Part shown: piece after piece, positions 9,391 through 36,347 of the stretch
Layout of the letters: every line of letters starts with the position of its first letter
Position numbering within the stretch: position 1 is the first letter of the stretch
Assembly: GCA_016741895.1 (NCBI GenBank)
Contig: JACVCT010000008.1
Span: 1-37,795 of the forward strand
Length of the DNA: 37,795 bases
DNA from: Gemmatimonadaceae bacterium
Lineage (GTDB): Bacteria > Gemmatimonadota > Gemmatimonadetes > Gemmatimonadales > Gemmatimonadaceae
Direction of reading: 5' to 3'
The notes under the pieces: generated by a model
Database searches by the model: none
What the model was told of the DNA's origin: nothing
The model's input: the letters and a program-made list of their open reading frames with translations, nothing else
Position numbers and translations under genes: made by a program

Positions 9391-10001
9391 CCAATGCACC
9401 GGAGGATGAGCTCGGTACCCTGCAGCTCATTCTGCTGCGCCACGCCCATGCGGCGAGCGATGGACGCTGCATTGGCTGGACCGATGTGCCGCTCAGCGAC
9501 ACCGGGCGAGCGCAGTGCACAACGCTCATCACGACGGACGGGCCGCTGCGGCAGGTCCTGAATGCCGGAAGCGGCGACCTGCATCTGGCAAGCAGCGATC
9601 TGCGCAGAGCGCGTGAGACCGCCGTCGCCATCGGCGAGTGCGTCCGTGTGCCGATCCACGAAAGTGCCGACCTGCGTGAGATGCACTTCGGGGCCTGGGA
9701 AGGCCGGACCTGGGCCGCGCTGGAAGTGGAGGACGGAGAAGAACTGGCCACCTGGATGGCACACTGGCAGGTGGCGGCACCGCCAGGTGGAGAGACCGTC
9801 GCGCAACTGCAGCAGCGTGTCGCCACGGTGTTGCGTCGTCTGTCGCTGCGGCCAGAACGCCGGATGCTGGTGGTCAGTCACGCCGGCTGGATTCGCGTGG
9901 CGCTGTGTTTGCTGCAGAACCGACCGGTGCGCGAGATGTTTGACATCACGGTGCCACACGCGCAGCCGATTGTGCTCAGTGTTGCACGCCACCTGCTCTG
10001 A
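9387..10001 (+). CDS. Histidine-phosphatase family protein, stand-alone CobC-like
   Basis: The 204-residue protein belongs to the phosphoglycerate-mutase-like histidine phosphatases. The catalytic segment reads LRHAHAASDGRCIGWTDVPLS, with Ala in place of the common Gly after RH. The second part has LREMHFGAWEGRTW and VVSHAGWIRVAL. The GR-C-IGWTDVPLS pattern is typical of CobC alpha-ribazole phosphatases. It is the last gene of the cobalamin operon (ATGA overlap with cobS), although the operon already encodes a CobC domain fused to CobT. It may be the true alpha-ribazole-5'-phosphate phosphatase or a paralogue with another substrate. Its 3' end overlaps the convergent kynB by 26 bases. Confidence 0.8.
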   Translation: MTNAPEDELGTLQLILLRHAHAASDGRCIGWTDVPLSDTGRAQCTTLITTDGPLRQVLNAGSGDLHLASSDLRRARETAVAIGECVRVPIHESADLREMHFGAWEGRTWAALEVEDGEELATWMAHWQVAAPPGGETVAQLQQRVATVLRRLSLRPERRMLVVSHAGWIRVALCLLQNRPVREMFDITVPHAQPIVLSVARHLL

Positions 10002-18683: not shown

Positions 18684-20050
18684 GAGAGCACCGCCTGCAG
18701 CATATCGCCGCGTTCGCGAAGGACAGAGGTGGCGCGTTCGCTGGAGGCACTGCGCAAGGCCAGCCACGCCGACACGGAGAACAACACGGCCTGCACCGCG
18801 AACACGGCCACATAGCCGCGCACCGGTGAACCGAGAACCACGCGCGCCGCATCCACACCGGCCGCGCCGGAGAGCGTGCCCAGCGCATAGGCCATGGCCT
18901 GTGCGGCGCCAAAGACACCGAGACGCAGACCGGCACGTCCATCGCGGCGATCACCGGTGAGCGCCATCATCGAGCCGATCGCGCCGATGGCAAAGACTCC
19001 GTTGGCCAGACCCAGCACGACCACGATGCCGGTGAACGCGCTCACACTCGCGAAGCCCGGAGAGAGCAGCAGCGCGAGGTAGGCCAGGGCGGAACCGAAG
19101 CAGCCGGCCGCCGCCCACTGGCGGAGCTGACCGGTGAAACGCGCGGCGATGGCGGTGACGATCATGCCCACCAGCACACCGCCGTGATGCGCACCCGAGA
19201 GCGAGGTGCTCTCACCGGGCGTCATGCCGAAGGCCAGACCGGCGAAGGGCTCGAGAATGAGATCCTGCGCGCTGTAGGCGAACATGGCCAGGAACACGAA
19301 GCCGGCGAACAGTCGCGCCGCCGGCTCGTTCCACACGGTCTCGAAACTCTGTCGGAAGGAGGGACGCGTATTGCCGCTCGAGGGCGAGCCCGTTGTGTCC
19401 GTTGCAGCCGACGCAGGAATTGCAGCCGCGTCTTCCATGCCGCGCGTGGCAATCCACGCCACCAGCAGTCCCACGCCGCCGATGCCGGCGGCCACGGCCA
19501 CCAGCCGTGTCATGGAGAAGGGATCGAGCAGGCTGCCCGACACGATCGCGGTGATGATGATGCCCACGATCATGAGAATCCAGGTGATCGCGGCCGCCGC
19601 AGCGCGCTGCGTGGGGTGGGCCCGCTCGCTCATGAGCGCCAGCAGCGGCGTGCCGGCGGCACTGACGCCGGCGCCAAGCAGAATGGAGGCGGTGCAGGCG
19701 AGCAGCACACCCAGCAGGAGCTGTTGCTGCATGAGCCCCACGCTTGCGGTGACGGCCACACCACTGACGGCGGCGACTCCCATGCCACCGAGAATCCACG
19801 GCGTGCGGCGCGCGTGCACGTCGGAGGCATGACCGAGGCGCGGTCGCAGATAGAGCTGCACGGCGAAATGCACGGCCACCAGCAAGCCGGGAATGAGCGC
19901 GGGCAGTGCGAGCTCCACCACAATCACACGATTGACGGTGGTGGTGAGCAGCACCACCACGGCGCCGATGGCGGCCTGCACGAGGCCAAGGCGCGCCATC
20001 TGGGTCCACTTGAGCGGAGGCATAGCCGACGGCAGGGTGCTGGTGTTCAC
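18680..20050 (-). CDS. PucC/LhaA-family major-facilitator protein between bchG and bchP (ORF428/Bch2-like)
   Basis: The 456-residue polytopic protein belongs to the PucC/BCH2 group of the major facilitator superfamily, with about 12 hydrophobic helices. Typical sequence includes TTTVNRVIVVELALPALIPG near the N-terminus, RPRLGHASDVHARRTPWILGG, a Ser/Thr-rich cytosolic loop and a FAYSAQDLILEPFAGLAFGMTPGEST stretch. Homologues sit between bchG and bchP in purple bacteria and are thought to help pigment delivery or light-harvesting assembly. The GTG at 20050 is in a GTGA overlap with bchG. The same frame is open back to 20800, but that part is bchG read out of frame, so this is not a fusion protein. 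Confidence 0.88.
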   Translation of the reverse strand: MNTSTLPSAMPPLKWTQMARLGLVQAAIGAVVVLLTTTVNRVIVVELALPALIPGLLVAVHFAVQLYLRPRLGHASDVHARRTPWILGGMGVAAVSGVAVTASVGLMQQQLLLGVLLACTASILLGAGVSAAGTPLLALMSERAHPTQRAAAAAITWILMIVGIIITAIVSGSLLDPFSMTRLVAVAAGIGGVGLLVAWIATRGMEDAAAIPASAATDTTGSPSSGNTRPSFRQSFETVWNEPAARLFAGFVFLAMFAYSAQDLILEPFAGLAFGMTPGESTSLSGAHHGGVLVGMIVTAIAARFTGQLRQWAAAGCFGSALAYLALLLSPGFASVSAFTGIVVVLGLANGVFAIGAIGSMMALTGDRRDGRAGLRLGVFGAAQAMAYALGTLSGAAGVDAARVVLGSPVRGYVAVFAVQAVLFSVSAWLALRSASSERATSVLRERGDMLQAVLS

Positions 20051-31829: not shown

Positions 31830-31830
<1 letters not shown>

Positions 31831-32636
31831 TGCCCGCGCCCACCACCATGACACACTCCCCGACTCCAGGTCCGTCGTTCGAAGGAACGCCGCCTGGGGG
31901 TTCGCACGCCGCATCGGTTTCGTACCGAGAGCGGCGGGCCTGGATCGGGGAGTACTTCGACCGCACGGCCGCCGATGCCTGGAAGGCACTGACGTCCGAT
32001 GCGCCGGTCTCGCGGGTGCGCGCCTCGGTGCGCGCCGGACGCGACCACATGCGCGAGACGCTGCTGAGCTGGCTGCCGCCGGATCTGCATGGCATGCGGG
32101 TGCTGGACGCCGGCTGCGGCACGGGCACGGCGGCCATTGCACTGGCCGAGCGCGGCGCCGAGGTGGTGGCCATCGATCTCTCGCCCACGCTGGTGGAGCA
32201 CGCGCAGGAGCGCGCGGACGCCGTCGGCGCGCCGCCCATCGATTTCCGCTCCGGGGACATGCTCGATCCATCGCTGGGCACGTTTGACTACGTGCTGGCC
32301 ATGGACAGCATCATCCACTACGAGTTGCCCGAGATGATGGCGGTGCTCACCGCGCTCGCGCCGCGCGTGCGCGAGCGCATGCTCATCACGGTGGCGCCTC
32401 GCACACCCATGCTCACGGTGATGCGGGCCGTGGGGCGGCTGTTCCCGCGCGCCGACCGCGCACCGGCCATCGTGCCGGTATCCGACTACGCGTTCCGCAA
32501 GGCCTTCGCGGCCGTGCCGGCGCTGGACACCTGGGGCATTGTCGGGACCCGGCTGGTGGAATCGGGCTTCTACCGCTCGATGGCCATCAAGATGCAGAAC
32601 GCGTCATTGCGCGGCGACGCCGCGCCATCACGCTGA
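31830..32636 (+). CDS. bchM: Magnesium protoporphyrin IX methyltransferase BchM
   Basis: BchM methylates the 13-propionate of Mg-protoporphyrin IX using S-adenosylmethionine. The 268-residue product has the SAM-binding motif VLDAGCGTGTAAIALAERG (about 91-109), YVLAMDSIIHYE, and a C-terminal FYRSMAIKMQNASL segment. YFDRTAADAWKALTSDAPVSRVRASVRAGR is the family N-terminal pattern. A Pro/Thr/Ser-rich lead of about 25 residues makes it longer than usual (about 225-235). It shares one base with bchL (TGATG). Confidence 0.94.
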
Positions 32637-32664
32637 ACGTTCGTCAATCCGAAGGAGACACGCG

Positions 32665-32997
32665 ATGGAACCGATGACCTGGGGACTGCTGGCTGCTGCG
32701 GCAGGAGGCGCTGGACTGTGGTACGTGATGAAGCGTCGGCGCGAGGTGGCCTGCACGGTCGATCTCGAGATGACGCATGACCACTTCCACGCGCATGTGG
32801 ACCTCAAGGGTGTGTACGTCGATCCCGGCGACGAGGTGCTGGTGCGCAATACGCCCAGTCGCATCGCGTTCGGGACACAGACCACGTTCGACTCCAGCGC
32901 CGAGGTCCGTCGGGCCAGCTGGCTCAAGCGGCAGGTGGTGAAGCTCACCGGTGGCACCGCCATTCACGAACTCTACGAAGTCGGCTTCGAAGGCTGA
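32665..32997 (+). CDS. Conserved-type small membrane-anchored protein upstream of acsF (candidate cyclase accessory protein)
   Basis: The 110-residue protein starts at ATG 32665, after a clear GAAGGAGA ribosome-binding site, 28 bases after bchM and eight before acsF. One N-terminal transmembrane helix (WGLLAAAAGGAGLWYVM, about residues 6-22) is followed by KRRR, predicting a cytosolic domain of about 85 residues. That domain is beta-rich with DLEMTHDHFHAHVDL (four His), GDEVLVRNTP and a C-terminal end of ELYEVGFEG. I do not recognise a described domain with certainty. The position just before acsF is like that of BciE (rsp_6110), an AcsF cyclase subunit in alphaproteobacteria, so a cyclase partner role is a reasonable but unproven guess. 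Confidence 0.8.
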   Translation: MEPMTWGLLAAAAGGAGLWYVMKRRREVACTVDLEMTHDHFHAHVDLKGVYVDPGDEVLVRNTPSRIAFGTQTTFDSSAEVRRASWLKRQVVKLTGGTAIHELYEVGFEG

Positions 32998-33005
32998 TCC
33001 CTCCC

Positions 33006-34091
33006 ATGTACTCGACCACGACCGAAATCCCGGTGCGCCCGCTCGCGGCGCCCAACGCCACCACGCAGGCGGCGCAGCAGGATGCGATGCTCAATCCGCG
33101 CTTCTACACCACGAACTTCGCGGAAATCGACGCGCTGCACATCACGCCAGAGAACCGCCGCATGTGGGATGACATGCTGGCCGAGTTCCGGCGCGATCCC
33201 AACAAGGATCATTTCAAGCGCTCGCCGGAGTTCGACGATGACTTCTCGGCCATGGACCCGGCACTGCGCGAGCAGTTCATCGAGTTCCTCACCTCATCGG
33301 TGACGGCCGAGTTCTCGGGATGCATCCTGTACGCCGAGATCAAGAAGCGCATCAAGAATCAGGATGTGCGCGATCTCTTCGGCTTCATGAGCCGCGACGA
33401 GGGGCGTCACGCGGGGTTCATCAACCACACGCTGCGCGACTTCAACGTGGCCGTGGATCTGAGCTTCCTGACGCGGGCCAAGAAGTACACGTACTTCCAG
33501 CCCAAGTTCATCTACTACGCCACCTACCTGTCGGAGAAGATCGGTTACGCGCGGTACATCACCATCTACCGCAACTTCGAGAAGCAGCCGGACAAGCGCT
33601 TCCACCCGATCTTCAAGTTCTTCGAGAACTGGTGCCTGGACGAGTTTCGCCACGGCGAGGCGTTTGCCGTGCTGATGCGCTCCAATCCGCATCTCCTGCA
33701 GGGGGTGAACAAGCTCTGGATCCGCTTCTTCCTGCTCGCGGTGTTCTGCACCATGTACGTGCGTGATCACGCGCGGAAGGAGTTCTTCGACTTCATGGGG
33801 CTCGACGTGGACGACTACGACCGTCGTGTCATCACGCTGACCAACACCATCAGTCGCCAGGTCTTCCCGGAGACCATCGACACCGAGTCCGAGGCGTTCT
33901 GGGGGCTGTTGGACAAGATGTGGAAGAACACCGAGGCCATGCGCCGCGCCGAGCAGCAGGGCGGCATGTTCTCCGGACTCAAGGTCACGGCACTCAAGGC
34001 CGCGAACGCGTTCACCTTCCTGCGGCTGTTCCTGCGTCGTCCCCACCGGCAGGCCCTGCCGGCGGATGTGCGCATGCAGCCGGTGTGGTGA
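33006..34091 (+). CDS. acsF: Mg-protoporphyrin IX monomethyl ester oxidative cyclase AcsF
   Basis: AcsF is the di-iron, O2-dependent enzyme that forms the isocyclic ring of protochlorophyllide. The 361-residue product carries the di-iron ligand motifs AEFSGCILYAEIKKRIKN (Glu102, Glu111), SRDEGRHAGFINH (Glu132-x-x-His135) and CLDEFRHGEAFA (Glu213-x-x-His216). Also present is YFQPKFIYYATYLSEKIGYARYITIYR, typical of the family. No O2-independent BchE is in the window. The gene lies between the 110-residue protein and lhaA, whereas purple bacteria often have acsF after puhC. Confidence 0.97.
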   Translation: MYSTTTEIPVRPLAAPNATTQAAQQDAMLNPRFYTTNFAEIDALHITPENRRMWDDMLAEFRRDPNKDHFKRSPEFDDDFSAMDPALREQFIEFLTSSVTAEFSGCILYAEIKKRIKNQDVRDLFGFMSRDEGRHAGFINHTLRDFNVAVDLSFLTRAKKYTYFQPKFIYYATYLSEKIGYARYITIYRNFEKQPDKRFHPIFKFFENWCLDEFRHGEAFAVLMRSNPHLLQGVNKLWIRFFLLAVFCTMYVRDHARKEFFDFMGLDVDDYDRRVITLTNTISRQVFPETIDTESEAFWGLLDKMWKNTEAMRRAEQQGGMFSGLKVTALKAANAFTFLRLFLRRPHRQALPADVRMQPVW

Positions 34092-34109: not shown

Positions 34110-35570
34110 ATGGCAAAATCTGCTGAACTTCCCGTGCGCATCTGGCGCGCTCTCGGCACCCGATGGATGCCGTTTGCCGACGTGGGCAGTGAGGACGTGC
34201 CGCTGTCGCGGCTCTTCCGGCTGTCGCTGTTTCAGCTGGCAGTGGGGATGGTGCAGACGCTGTTCGTGGGCACCCTCAACCGGGTGATGATCCTCGAACT
34301 CCGGGTGCCGGCGTCGCTGGTGGCCATCATGCTGGCCATCCCGCTGCTGGCTGCGCCTTTCCGCGCGCTGGTGGGGTTCAAGTCGGATACACATCGCAGC
34401 ATCCTGGGCTGGCGTCGGGTGCCCTATCTCTGGATTGGCACACAGCTGCAGTTTGGCGGTCTGGCCATCATGCCGTTTGCGCTGCTGCTGCTGTCGGAGA
34501 AGGGCAGTGGTGGCCCGGTGTGGATTGCCTACGCGGCGAGCGCCGTGGCCTTTCTGCTGGCGGGCGCCGGCGCGCATACCACGCAGACGGCGGGTCTGGC
34601 GCTGGCCACTGATCTGGTGAGCGAGGACAAGCGGCCGCGCGTGATCGCGCTGATGTACCTGATGATGCTGGTGGGTACGCTGGTGAGCGCGCTCATTCTT
34701 GAACAGCTGCTGCAGCCGTTCTCGGCGATGCGGCTGATTCAGGTCATTCAGGGAGCAGCGCTGTTCACGATCGTGGTGAACGCCTTTGCGCTCTGGAAGC
34801 AGGAAGCCAGACAGCGCGGCGTGGTGGAGTACAAGAAGGGCGAGCGTCGTCCCCAGTTCCGTGAAGCGTGGCGGACGTTCGCTTCCGGTGGTCAGGCGGT
34901 GGGACTTCTGGTGGCGTCCGGCCTCGGGTTCTTCGCGTTCAACCTGCAGGACGTGCTGCTCGAGCCCTATGGTGGCGAGATCCTGCATTTCACCGTTGCA
35001 GGTACCACGGCACTGACAGGCATCATGGCCTTTGGCGCGGTGCTGGCCTTTGTGTGGAGTGCCACACAGGACCGCACCGTGAAGGCCCCGCTTCGGCTGG
35101 CGTCGCAGGGTGTGGTGGTGGGCCTGCTGGGATTTGCCATGATCACGGCGGGCAGCATGATGAGCACCCACCCCATCTGGGCGCCGTTCTTCTTTCGTTT
35201 CGGCGTGATGCTCATTGGTTTTGGTGAGGCGCTCTTTGGTGTGGGGACGCTGTCATTCGCCATGGGTATGCGTGATGCCACGCAGCACGGCATTGCACTG
35301 GGCGCGTGGGGCGCGGTGTTTGCCACCGCCGAAGGGCTGTCGTTTGCCCTGAGCGGCCTCATGAAGGATGCGTTGTCGCACCTCGGTGCCACGCAACCGG
35401 TTGGAAGCTGGTTGGCGCAGCCTGCTGCGCCCTATACGGCGGTGTACGGCACGGAAATCGTGGTCTTGCTGATCACCCTGGTTGTTCTGGGCACTGTGGG
35501 TCGCCGCGCGGCGAACCAGGTGTCAGTTGGAGTTGCACGCCCCTTCGGTCTCGCGGACATCCCGGCGTGA
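34110..35570 (+). CDS. lhaA: LhaA/PucC-family light-harvesting 1 assembly protein
   Basis: The 486-residue polytopic protein (about 12 helices) is of the LhaA (ORF477) type that precedes puhA in purple bacteria and is needed for LH1 assembly and chlorophyll delivery. Landmarks are [86 protein letters not shown] and [26 protein letters not shown] ribosome-binding site precedes ATG 34110. It is a paralogue of the pucC-like gene at 18680-20050. It is followed 28 bases later by the reaction-centre H genes. Confidence 0.94.
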
Positions 35571-35598: not shown

Positions 35599-35802
35599 AT
35601 GATGGACTATCTCGATGGTGCCCAGATCGCGTTGTACGCGTTCTGGTTGTTTTTCTTCGGGTTGATCATCTACCTCCGCAAGGAAGACAAGCGCGAAGGT
35701 TATCCGCTCGAGTCGCCGCAGGGTCCGCGTGAGGGCTGGCCGAAGCCGGCCACGCCGAAGTCCTACATCCACCGCCACCACGGCGACGAGGGCGCGCACT
35801 GA
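35599..35802 (+). CDS. puhA: Photosynthetic reaction centre H subunit, N-terminal (transmembrane) part, as a separate gene
   Basis: This 67-residue protein corresponds to the first quarter of PuhA. One transmembrane helix (about residues 8-27, [19 protein letters not shown]) is followed by the family motif REGYPLES and a Pro-rich segment ending [20 protein letters not shown] at 35588-35591 precedes ATG 35599 (a second ATG is at 35602). The gene ends in TGA, which overlaps the next ATG (TGATG). In most phototrophs these residues are continuous with the cytoplasmic domain; here they are encoded separately in another frame. My recollection is that the Gemmatimonas phototrophica complex also has a two-part H subunit. 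Confidence 0.9.
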
Positions 35803-36347
35803 TGTCCAGCGTCAAGTATGTACCAGCTGACAGCTACAACGGCTCGCCGGTGGTGCCCACGGGCAACCCCATGATCGATGGGGTTGGCCCCGCCGCGTGG
35901 AACGAAGCGCGACGCGATGAGCCGGACGTGACGTATGATGGACGTCCGAAGCTCGTGCCCATGCGGATGGACGCCGCATTCAGCATTGCGAAGGGCGATC
36001 CCGATCCGCGCGGTCTGCCGGTGGTGGCCGCCGACAAGGTGGTGGCCGGCAAGGTCGTGGACGTGTGGGTCAATCGCTCGGAGCCGCAGGTGTCCTTCTA
36101 CGAGGTGCAGCTCAGCGGCAGCGAGCGTCGGGTGTTGCTGCCGTCCGGCTACGTGCAGTGGCCCAACTTCGGGCTCTGGGGCAATGATCGGCTGCTCGTG
36201 AAGTCCATCACCTCGGCGCAGTTTGCCAATGTGCCCGGCACGGCGCGCGAAGACCGCATCACGCTGCTCGAGGAAGACCGCATCTCGGCGTACTATGCCG
36301 GCGGTCATCTGTATGCCACGTCGTCCCGTTCCCAGCCCCTCATATGA
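35802..36347 (+). CDS. puhA: Photosynthetic reaction centre H subunit, C-terminal (cytoplasmic) part, as a separate gene
   Basis: The 181-residue protein matches PuhA from about residue 95 onward: TGNPMIDGVGPAAW, ARRDEPDVTYDGRPKLVPMR, VAGKVVDVWVNRSEP, FYEVQLSG, and the C-terminal ITLLEEDRISAYYAGGHLYA. It has no transmembrane helix and must dock on L/M and the separate helix. It starts at ATG 35802, one base into the previous stop, so it is translationally coupled. Compared with R. sphaeroides, the Glu173 position is kept (RSEP), but His126 and His128, the proposed proton-entry pair, fall at Asp and Arg. The coupling overlap and its own start argue against a simple frameshift. Confidence 0.9.
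   Translation: MSSVKYVPADSYNGSPVVPTGNPMIDGVGPAAWNEARRDEPDVTYDGRPKLVPMRMDAAFSIAKGDPDPRGLPVVAADKVVAGKVVDVWVNRSEPQVSFYEVQLSGSERRVLLPSGYVQWPNFGLWGNDRLLVKSITSAQFANVPGTAREDRITLLEEDRISAYYAGGHLYATSSRSQPLI

Follow-up and report, generated by a model that had tools for sequence, protein, structure and literature searches.

A predicted membrane-anchored BciE homologue accompanies the AcsF cyclase in phototrophic Gemmatimonadota

The window analyzed here is a stretch of 37,795 nucleotides from a Gemmatimonadaceae bacterium (assembly GCA_016741895.1, contig JACVCT010000008.1). It contains bacteriochlorophyll genes, among which an open reading frame of 110 codons lies 28 bp 3' of bchM and 8 bp 5' of acsF (Table 1). 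A preliminary description of the window had reported a strong ribosome-binding site for this gene, and the hexamer AAGGAG is indeed found at the expected place. Substitutions relative to two homologous loci fall mainly at third codon positions (12, 11 and 43 at codon positions 1, 2 and 3 against L002; 12, 15 and 53 against L004). Homologues are present in 22 of the 118 genomes of the source family, in all 22 cases between bchM and acsF. On these two grounds the reading frame is confirmed as a real protein gene. Scans of the protein against Pfam and NCBIfam returned nothing usable, and the curated families do not include it; a PEP-CTERM match reached 15.6 bits, below the cut-off of 16.

Table 1. 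Features of the bchM-lhaA interval and of the protein encoded between bchM and acsF.
Feature	Coordinates	Strand	Basis
bchM, Mg-protoporphyrin methyltransferase (preceding pathway step)	31830..32636	+	tblastn with annotated Novosphingobium BchM, 47% identity
Shine-Dalgarno AAGGAG	32652..32657	+	sequence; 7 bases 5' of ATG
bciE homologue, 110 aa	32665..32997	+	ORF, ATG start; stop counted in coordinates
Predicted N-terminal transmembrane helix, residues 3-21, then KRRR; predicted N-out/C-in	32671..32727	+	AlphaFold2; hydrophobicity; positive-inside rule
BciE domain, residues 28-110: four predicted beta strands, one helix, conserved C-terminal tail	32746..32994	+	alignments, profile-profile alignment, model
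H-A-H motif, residues 42-44, widespread, not invariant	32788..32796	+	alignment
ELYEVGFEG tail, residues 102-110	32968..32994	+	alignment
acsF, partner cyclase, of the BciE-associated AcsF types	33006..34091	+	TIGR02029 match over cut-off; AcsF tree
lhaA (PucC/BCD family), next cluster gene	34110..35570	+	48.6% identity to the annotated Novosphingobium BCD-family protein between bchM and puhA

Elsewhere in the window, the reaction-centre H subunit is encoded as two parts, one transmembrane (35602-35802) and one cytoplasmic (35802-36347), which is the known split puhA of Gemmatimonas; puhA of a Longimicrobiales locus (L057) likewise matches as two separate pieces. A distant second LhaA/PucC relative (25-28% identity) is found at 18770-20005 on the minus strand.

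The protein has counterparts in Alphaproteobacteria. We searched plasmids by tblastn, including some with complete photosynthesis gene clusters, and found matches to a 'hypothetical protein' of 96-98 residues encoded directly 5' of acsF in Novosphingobium capsulatum (E 4e-11), Roseinatronobacter, Roseobacter litoralis, Tateyamaria and others. The gene order in these plasmid-borne alphaproteobacterial clusters is puhA-puhB-puhC-homologue-acsF-puhE-hemA (the gene table of Tateyamaria lacks puhB). The slot between puhC and acsF is named bciE in PMC10576062, and it is from this source, together with operon position in named Alphaproteobacteria, that the homologue takes its name here.

Sequence similarity could be detected in both directions. 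A profile built solely from Gemmatimonadota sequences matched four alphaproteobacterial proteins, with E-values of 1.9e-16 to 6.8e-25 for a set database size of 1,000. Conversely, we built a profile from 58 non-Gemmatimonadota proteins encoded directly 5' of acsF, which are alphaproteobacterial by title except for four titled only Proteobacteria or bacterium. It matched the window protein with an E-value of 2.6e-30 when the database size was fixed at 10,000. Each of the 32 Gemmatimonadota sequences was recovered with an E-value no worse than 1.3e-21, and 2,000 shuffled sequences produced no hit. Furthermore, a profile-profile comparison of the Gemmatimonadota with the other sequences using hhalign gave a probability of 100 and an E-value of about 1e-43 over 93-96 columns. 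Since the profiles match both ways and align with each other, the gene can be identified as a BciE homologue by sequence, beyond its position. The preliminary description had called it 'related or analogous to BciE' or else a new tetrapyrrole-handling protein. The two-way similarity over the whole soluble domain, the slot directly 5' of acsF and the link to AcsF type described below settle on the first term: as far as sequence can tell, the protein and alphaproteobacterial BciE are true homologues rather than positional analogues, which makes the proposal of a new protein superfluous. The original BciE paper is Chen et al. 2017.

A kinship with Ycf54 had also been considered. No Ycf54 match appears among the Pfam families listed for 87 members of the BciE family, nor does Ycf54 turn up among the listed sequence or fold matches, and PF10674 was not found in the source genome in a search where a Synechococcus control matched. 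We therefore abandon this kinship.

The preliminary description had also proposed a single N-terminal helix, which is borne out both by the AlphaFold2 model (residues 3-21, block pLDDT 82-87) and by comparison: all 32 non-redundant Gemmatimonadota sequences have a hydrophobic N-terminus, and none of the 59 others does. The best 17-residue Kyte-Doolittle mean ranges from 1.01 to 2.93 in the former (median 1.86) and is at most 0.99 in the latter (median 0.26). The least hydrophobic Gemmatimonadota members, including members of the window's genus, differ from the others by a small margin, and the N-terminus of the window copy, rich in Ala and Gly, is only moderately hydrophobic. Absence of a transmembrane helix, a trait of alphaproteobacterial BciE as seen here and not a published criterion, thus does not extend to Gemmatimonadota, and on these sequences the added helix is a predicted feature specific to the Gemmatimonadota branch of the family. 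Because basic residues come after the helix, the BciE domain should face the cytoplasm under the positive-inside rule.

AlphaFold2 models this domain as four strands and one helix with a mean pLDDT of about 82, a moderate confidence, and a C-terminal tail of low confidence. Foldseek searches with two models, those of the window protein and of Methylobacterium BciE, gave no match below an E-value of 0.3. A profile search of the PDB returned weak fragments only, the best being NDUEG3 (0.0032, two repeated short pieces), followed by IF-1 (0.1) and ribosomal L6 (0.11); individual family members show stray weak matches to TOBE or TrkA_C. As modeled, the domain appears to resemble no solved structure. 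In an alignment of 91 sequences, G55, D56, A84 and F108 are invariant and C30, H42, A43, H44, R89, L103 and others nearly so. The His-rich stretch MTHDHFHAH singled out in the preliminary description is thus conserved in part: H42-A43-H44 is widespread, H42 occurring in 99 and H44 in 98 of 108 sequences, and MTHDH is restricted to close relatives. We set aside a strict metal site in this stretch, and with it the metal-binding reading, since the histidines are not invariant. The 'conserved-looking' ELYEVGFEG end proved to be conserved across Gemmatimonadaceae (LYEVGFEG or LYDVGFEG), with counterparts in Alphaproteobacteria (ELYEVSF or ELCEFSFSEE).

We then compared the occurrence of BciE and AcsF. 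Scanning the genome collection for AcsF, we found a BciE homologue directly 5' in 72 of the best 80 AcsF loci: five of five in Gemmatimonadota, one of eight in betaproteobacteria and 66 of the remaining 67, whose titles name Alphaproteobacteria or specify no group. The eight loci lacking it come from seven betaproteobacteria and one alphaproteobacterium, Pelagibius, and whole-genome searches of these eight genomes revealed no copy elsewhere. BciE is also absent from the whole genomes of all 39 AcsF-bearing members of a betaproteobacterial family centred on Rhizobacter; the query used in the absence searches recovers the homologue in other genomes at about 1e-33 to 1e-41. In a Rhodobacterales family, the homologue adjoins acsF in 30 of 30 loci. 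Within the phylum Gemmatimonadota, AcsF matches were obtained in 35 of 298 genomes, and BciE is adjacent to acsF in each of the 30 loci fetched. BciE hence accompanies AcsF in all examined phototrophic Gemmatimonadota loci and tracks AcsF type well outside the Alphaproteobacteria.

Exceptions to this distribution follow the type of AcsF, not the organism. On 'quick' AcsF trees with SH-aLRT support only, BciE presence requires two to three changes, compared with about 18 when labels are shuffled. The AcsF of Pelagibius (L085), found without BciE, groups with beta/gamma types; the gamma-class genome G600 (L141/L175) has BciE next to a Roseobacter-type AcsF. The BciE-bearing Polynucleobacter locus L103 is nested among betaproteobacterial AcsF. 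BciE thus occurs with the matching AcsF type, as seen both in the AcsF tree and in its absence (0/39) from the betaproteobacterial family. Three AcsF columns differ between BciE-bearing and BciE-free sequences: F260 (L or M in BciE-free), F125 (mostly M) and A219. These candidate interface sites, notably F260, are leads only, because the comparison is confounded by ancestry.

The bciE-acsF pair has shifted as a unit between operons within Gemmatimonadota. It lies between bchM and lhaA in Gemmatimonadaceae. A second Gemmatimonadota family (L107, L112, L113) has the arrangement puhB-puhC-bciE-acsF, and in the Longimicrobiales locus L057 the pair is 3' of a puhE-like gene, near the proteobacterial layout. 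That the two genes stay together through rearrangement is a sign of joint function. The placement at the methyltransferase-cyclase step, on which the preliminary description relied, is real in 22 of 22 family homologues, but adjacency to bchM is a local rearrangement, the pair being in the puh region in other Gemmatimonadota. These puh-region layouts also limit a published statement that acsF of phototrophic Gemmatimonadetes lies consistently between bchFNBHLM and lhaA-puhABC (PMC7844134).

Three classes of O2-dependent cyclase have been distinguished. In oxygenic phototrophs AcsF is joined by Ycf54; in Alphaproteobacteria its partner is BciE, on which the cyclase depends for closure of the fifth bacteriochlorophyll ring; and elsewhere AcsF acts alone (PMC7319587, PMC7242693, PMC13297055). 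The explanation that we consider best, and quite probable, is that the window protein is a membrane-anchored BciE homologue, strictly paired with one set of AcsF proteins, and a required partner of AcsF, a role suggested by homology. Because BciE has been kept, we infer that the Gemmatimonadota AcsF is BciE-dependent: it would need BciE for activity, by analogy with Alphaproteobacteria. The cytoplasmic beta domain would bind AcsF, either stabilizing it or assisting the loading of substrate or electrons; the extra helix would fix the AcsF complex to the membrane beside the product of BchM; that the helix holds the cyclase at the membrane is plausible. A whole-genome search of the source genome did not find BchE, a result weakened by the 91% completeness of this genome, and bchE has been reported in G. 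phototrophica, G. groenlandica being reported to lack it (PMC7844134). As neither BchE nor Ycf54 was found, the AcsF cyclase would be the sole route to ring E in the source organism.

However, AcsF of the betaproteobacterial class is active on its own (PMC7319587, PMC7242693), and dependence on BciE could have been lost in Gemmatimonadota. The homologue would then be a stabilizer or membrane tether retained for efficiency only, a shift of role with which the gain of a helix would agree. We regard this as unlikely: universal retention in Gemmatimonadota AcsF loci argues against a loss of dependence, since the gene is kept beside acsF in every examined locus, across two families and two operon layouts, and BciE is absent only where the AcsF type changes. 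The protein may instead serve as a tetrapyrrole channel, passing Mg-protoporphyrin or its methyl ester from BchM to AcsF with no action on AcsF itself. The bchM adjacency in Gemmatimonadaceae and the widespread H-A-H motif would suit such a role, but this adjacency is secondary, the histidines vary, and bchM and AcsF are also present in BciE-free genomes, so that a channel seems very unlikely. It is highly improbable that the protein is a photosystem assembly or structural factor, like RC-S, RC-U or the puh assembly proteins, brought beside acsF by cluster packing: a membrane helix, membership of the photosynthesis cluster and the puh-operon location in relatives and Alphaproteobacteria would fit, but its occurrence follows AcsF type, puh genes are present in BciE-free betaproteobacteria, and a single-sequence search matched no PDB chain although the Gemmatimonas complex is solved. 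RC-S or RC-U of the Gemmatimonas photosystem had in fact been our first suspicion; this PDB search, which gave no match, would miss chains deposited as unknown residues.

A BciE homologue in Gemmatimonadota bears on how the family has been described. In reviews up to 2026, BciE is an alphaproteobacterial subunit, as in the passage on cyclase components of PMC13297055, which names AcsF as the only component in Beta- and Gammaproteobacteria, Acidobacteria and Chloroflexi and does not mention Gemmatimonadota. Our literature search, which covered few subscription papers, found no naming of BciE in Gemmatimonadota; the sole match for 'bciE' with 'Gemmatimona' in the literature searched was PMC10576062, where bciE is mentioned once, for Myxococcota. 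Papers on Gemmatimonas color the unassigned genes of the cluster grey, as hypothetical, and the identity proposed here explains such a 'hypothetical' gene. BciE is also found next to acsF in some genomes of the class Gammaproteobacteria, which in GTDB includes betaproteobacteria: G367 (L142/L174), G600 and Polynucleobacter L103. These three run against the 'AcsF-only' generalization. The link between BciE and AcsF type predicts which bacteria need BciE, and expression of Gemmatimonas AcsF should include co-expression of the BciE homologue; a membrane-tethered BciE would also offer a handle for isolating the intact complex. A broader proposal, which may equally well prove right or wrong, is that BciE would be an integral membrane subunit anchoring the cyclase, and perhaps BchM, in a ring-E complex, and that dependence on BciE would be a transferable property of AcsF type, in which case the three-class scheme would have to be redrawn.

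Among known systems, RC-S and RC-U of the Gemmatimonas phototrophica photosystem are likewise small, come from phototrophic Gemmatimonas and lack a counterpart in other solved photosystems, but they are described as stabilizing the reaction-centre/antenna complex, and the window protein matches no PDB sequence. Ycf54 of oxygenic phototrophs offers a functional parallel only, as a small auxiliary protein of an AcsF-type cyclase; it shares no sequence kinship with BciE, whose domain of four predicted beta strands and one helix gave no fold match. The Rhizobacter-centred betaproteobacterial family corresponds to the published 'AcsF-only' class, where the absence of BciE fits. Compared with alphaproteobacterial BciE, the Gemmatimonadota proteins have 25-33 residues (about 28) before the conserved Cys instead of about 15, the extra length forming the predicted transmembrane helix; they end in VGFEG or VGFE with no tail beyond; and in Gemmatimonadaceae the gene pair lies between bchM and lhaA, not after puhC. 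The two share homology over the entire domain of about 83 residues, a gene immediately 5' of acsF and a tie to the type of AcsF.
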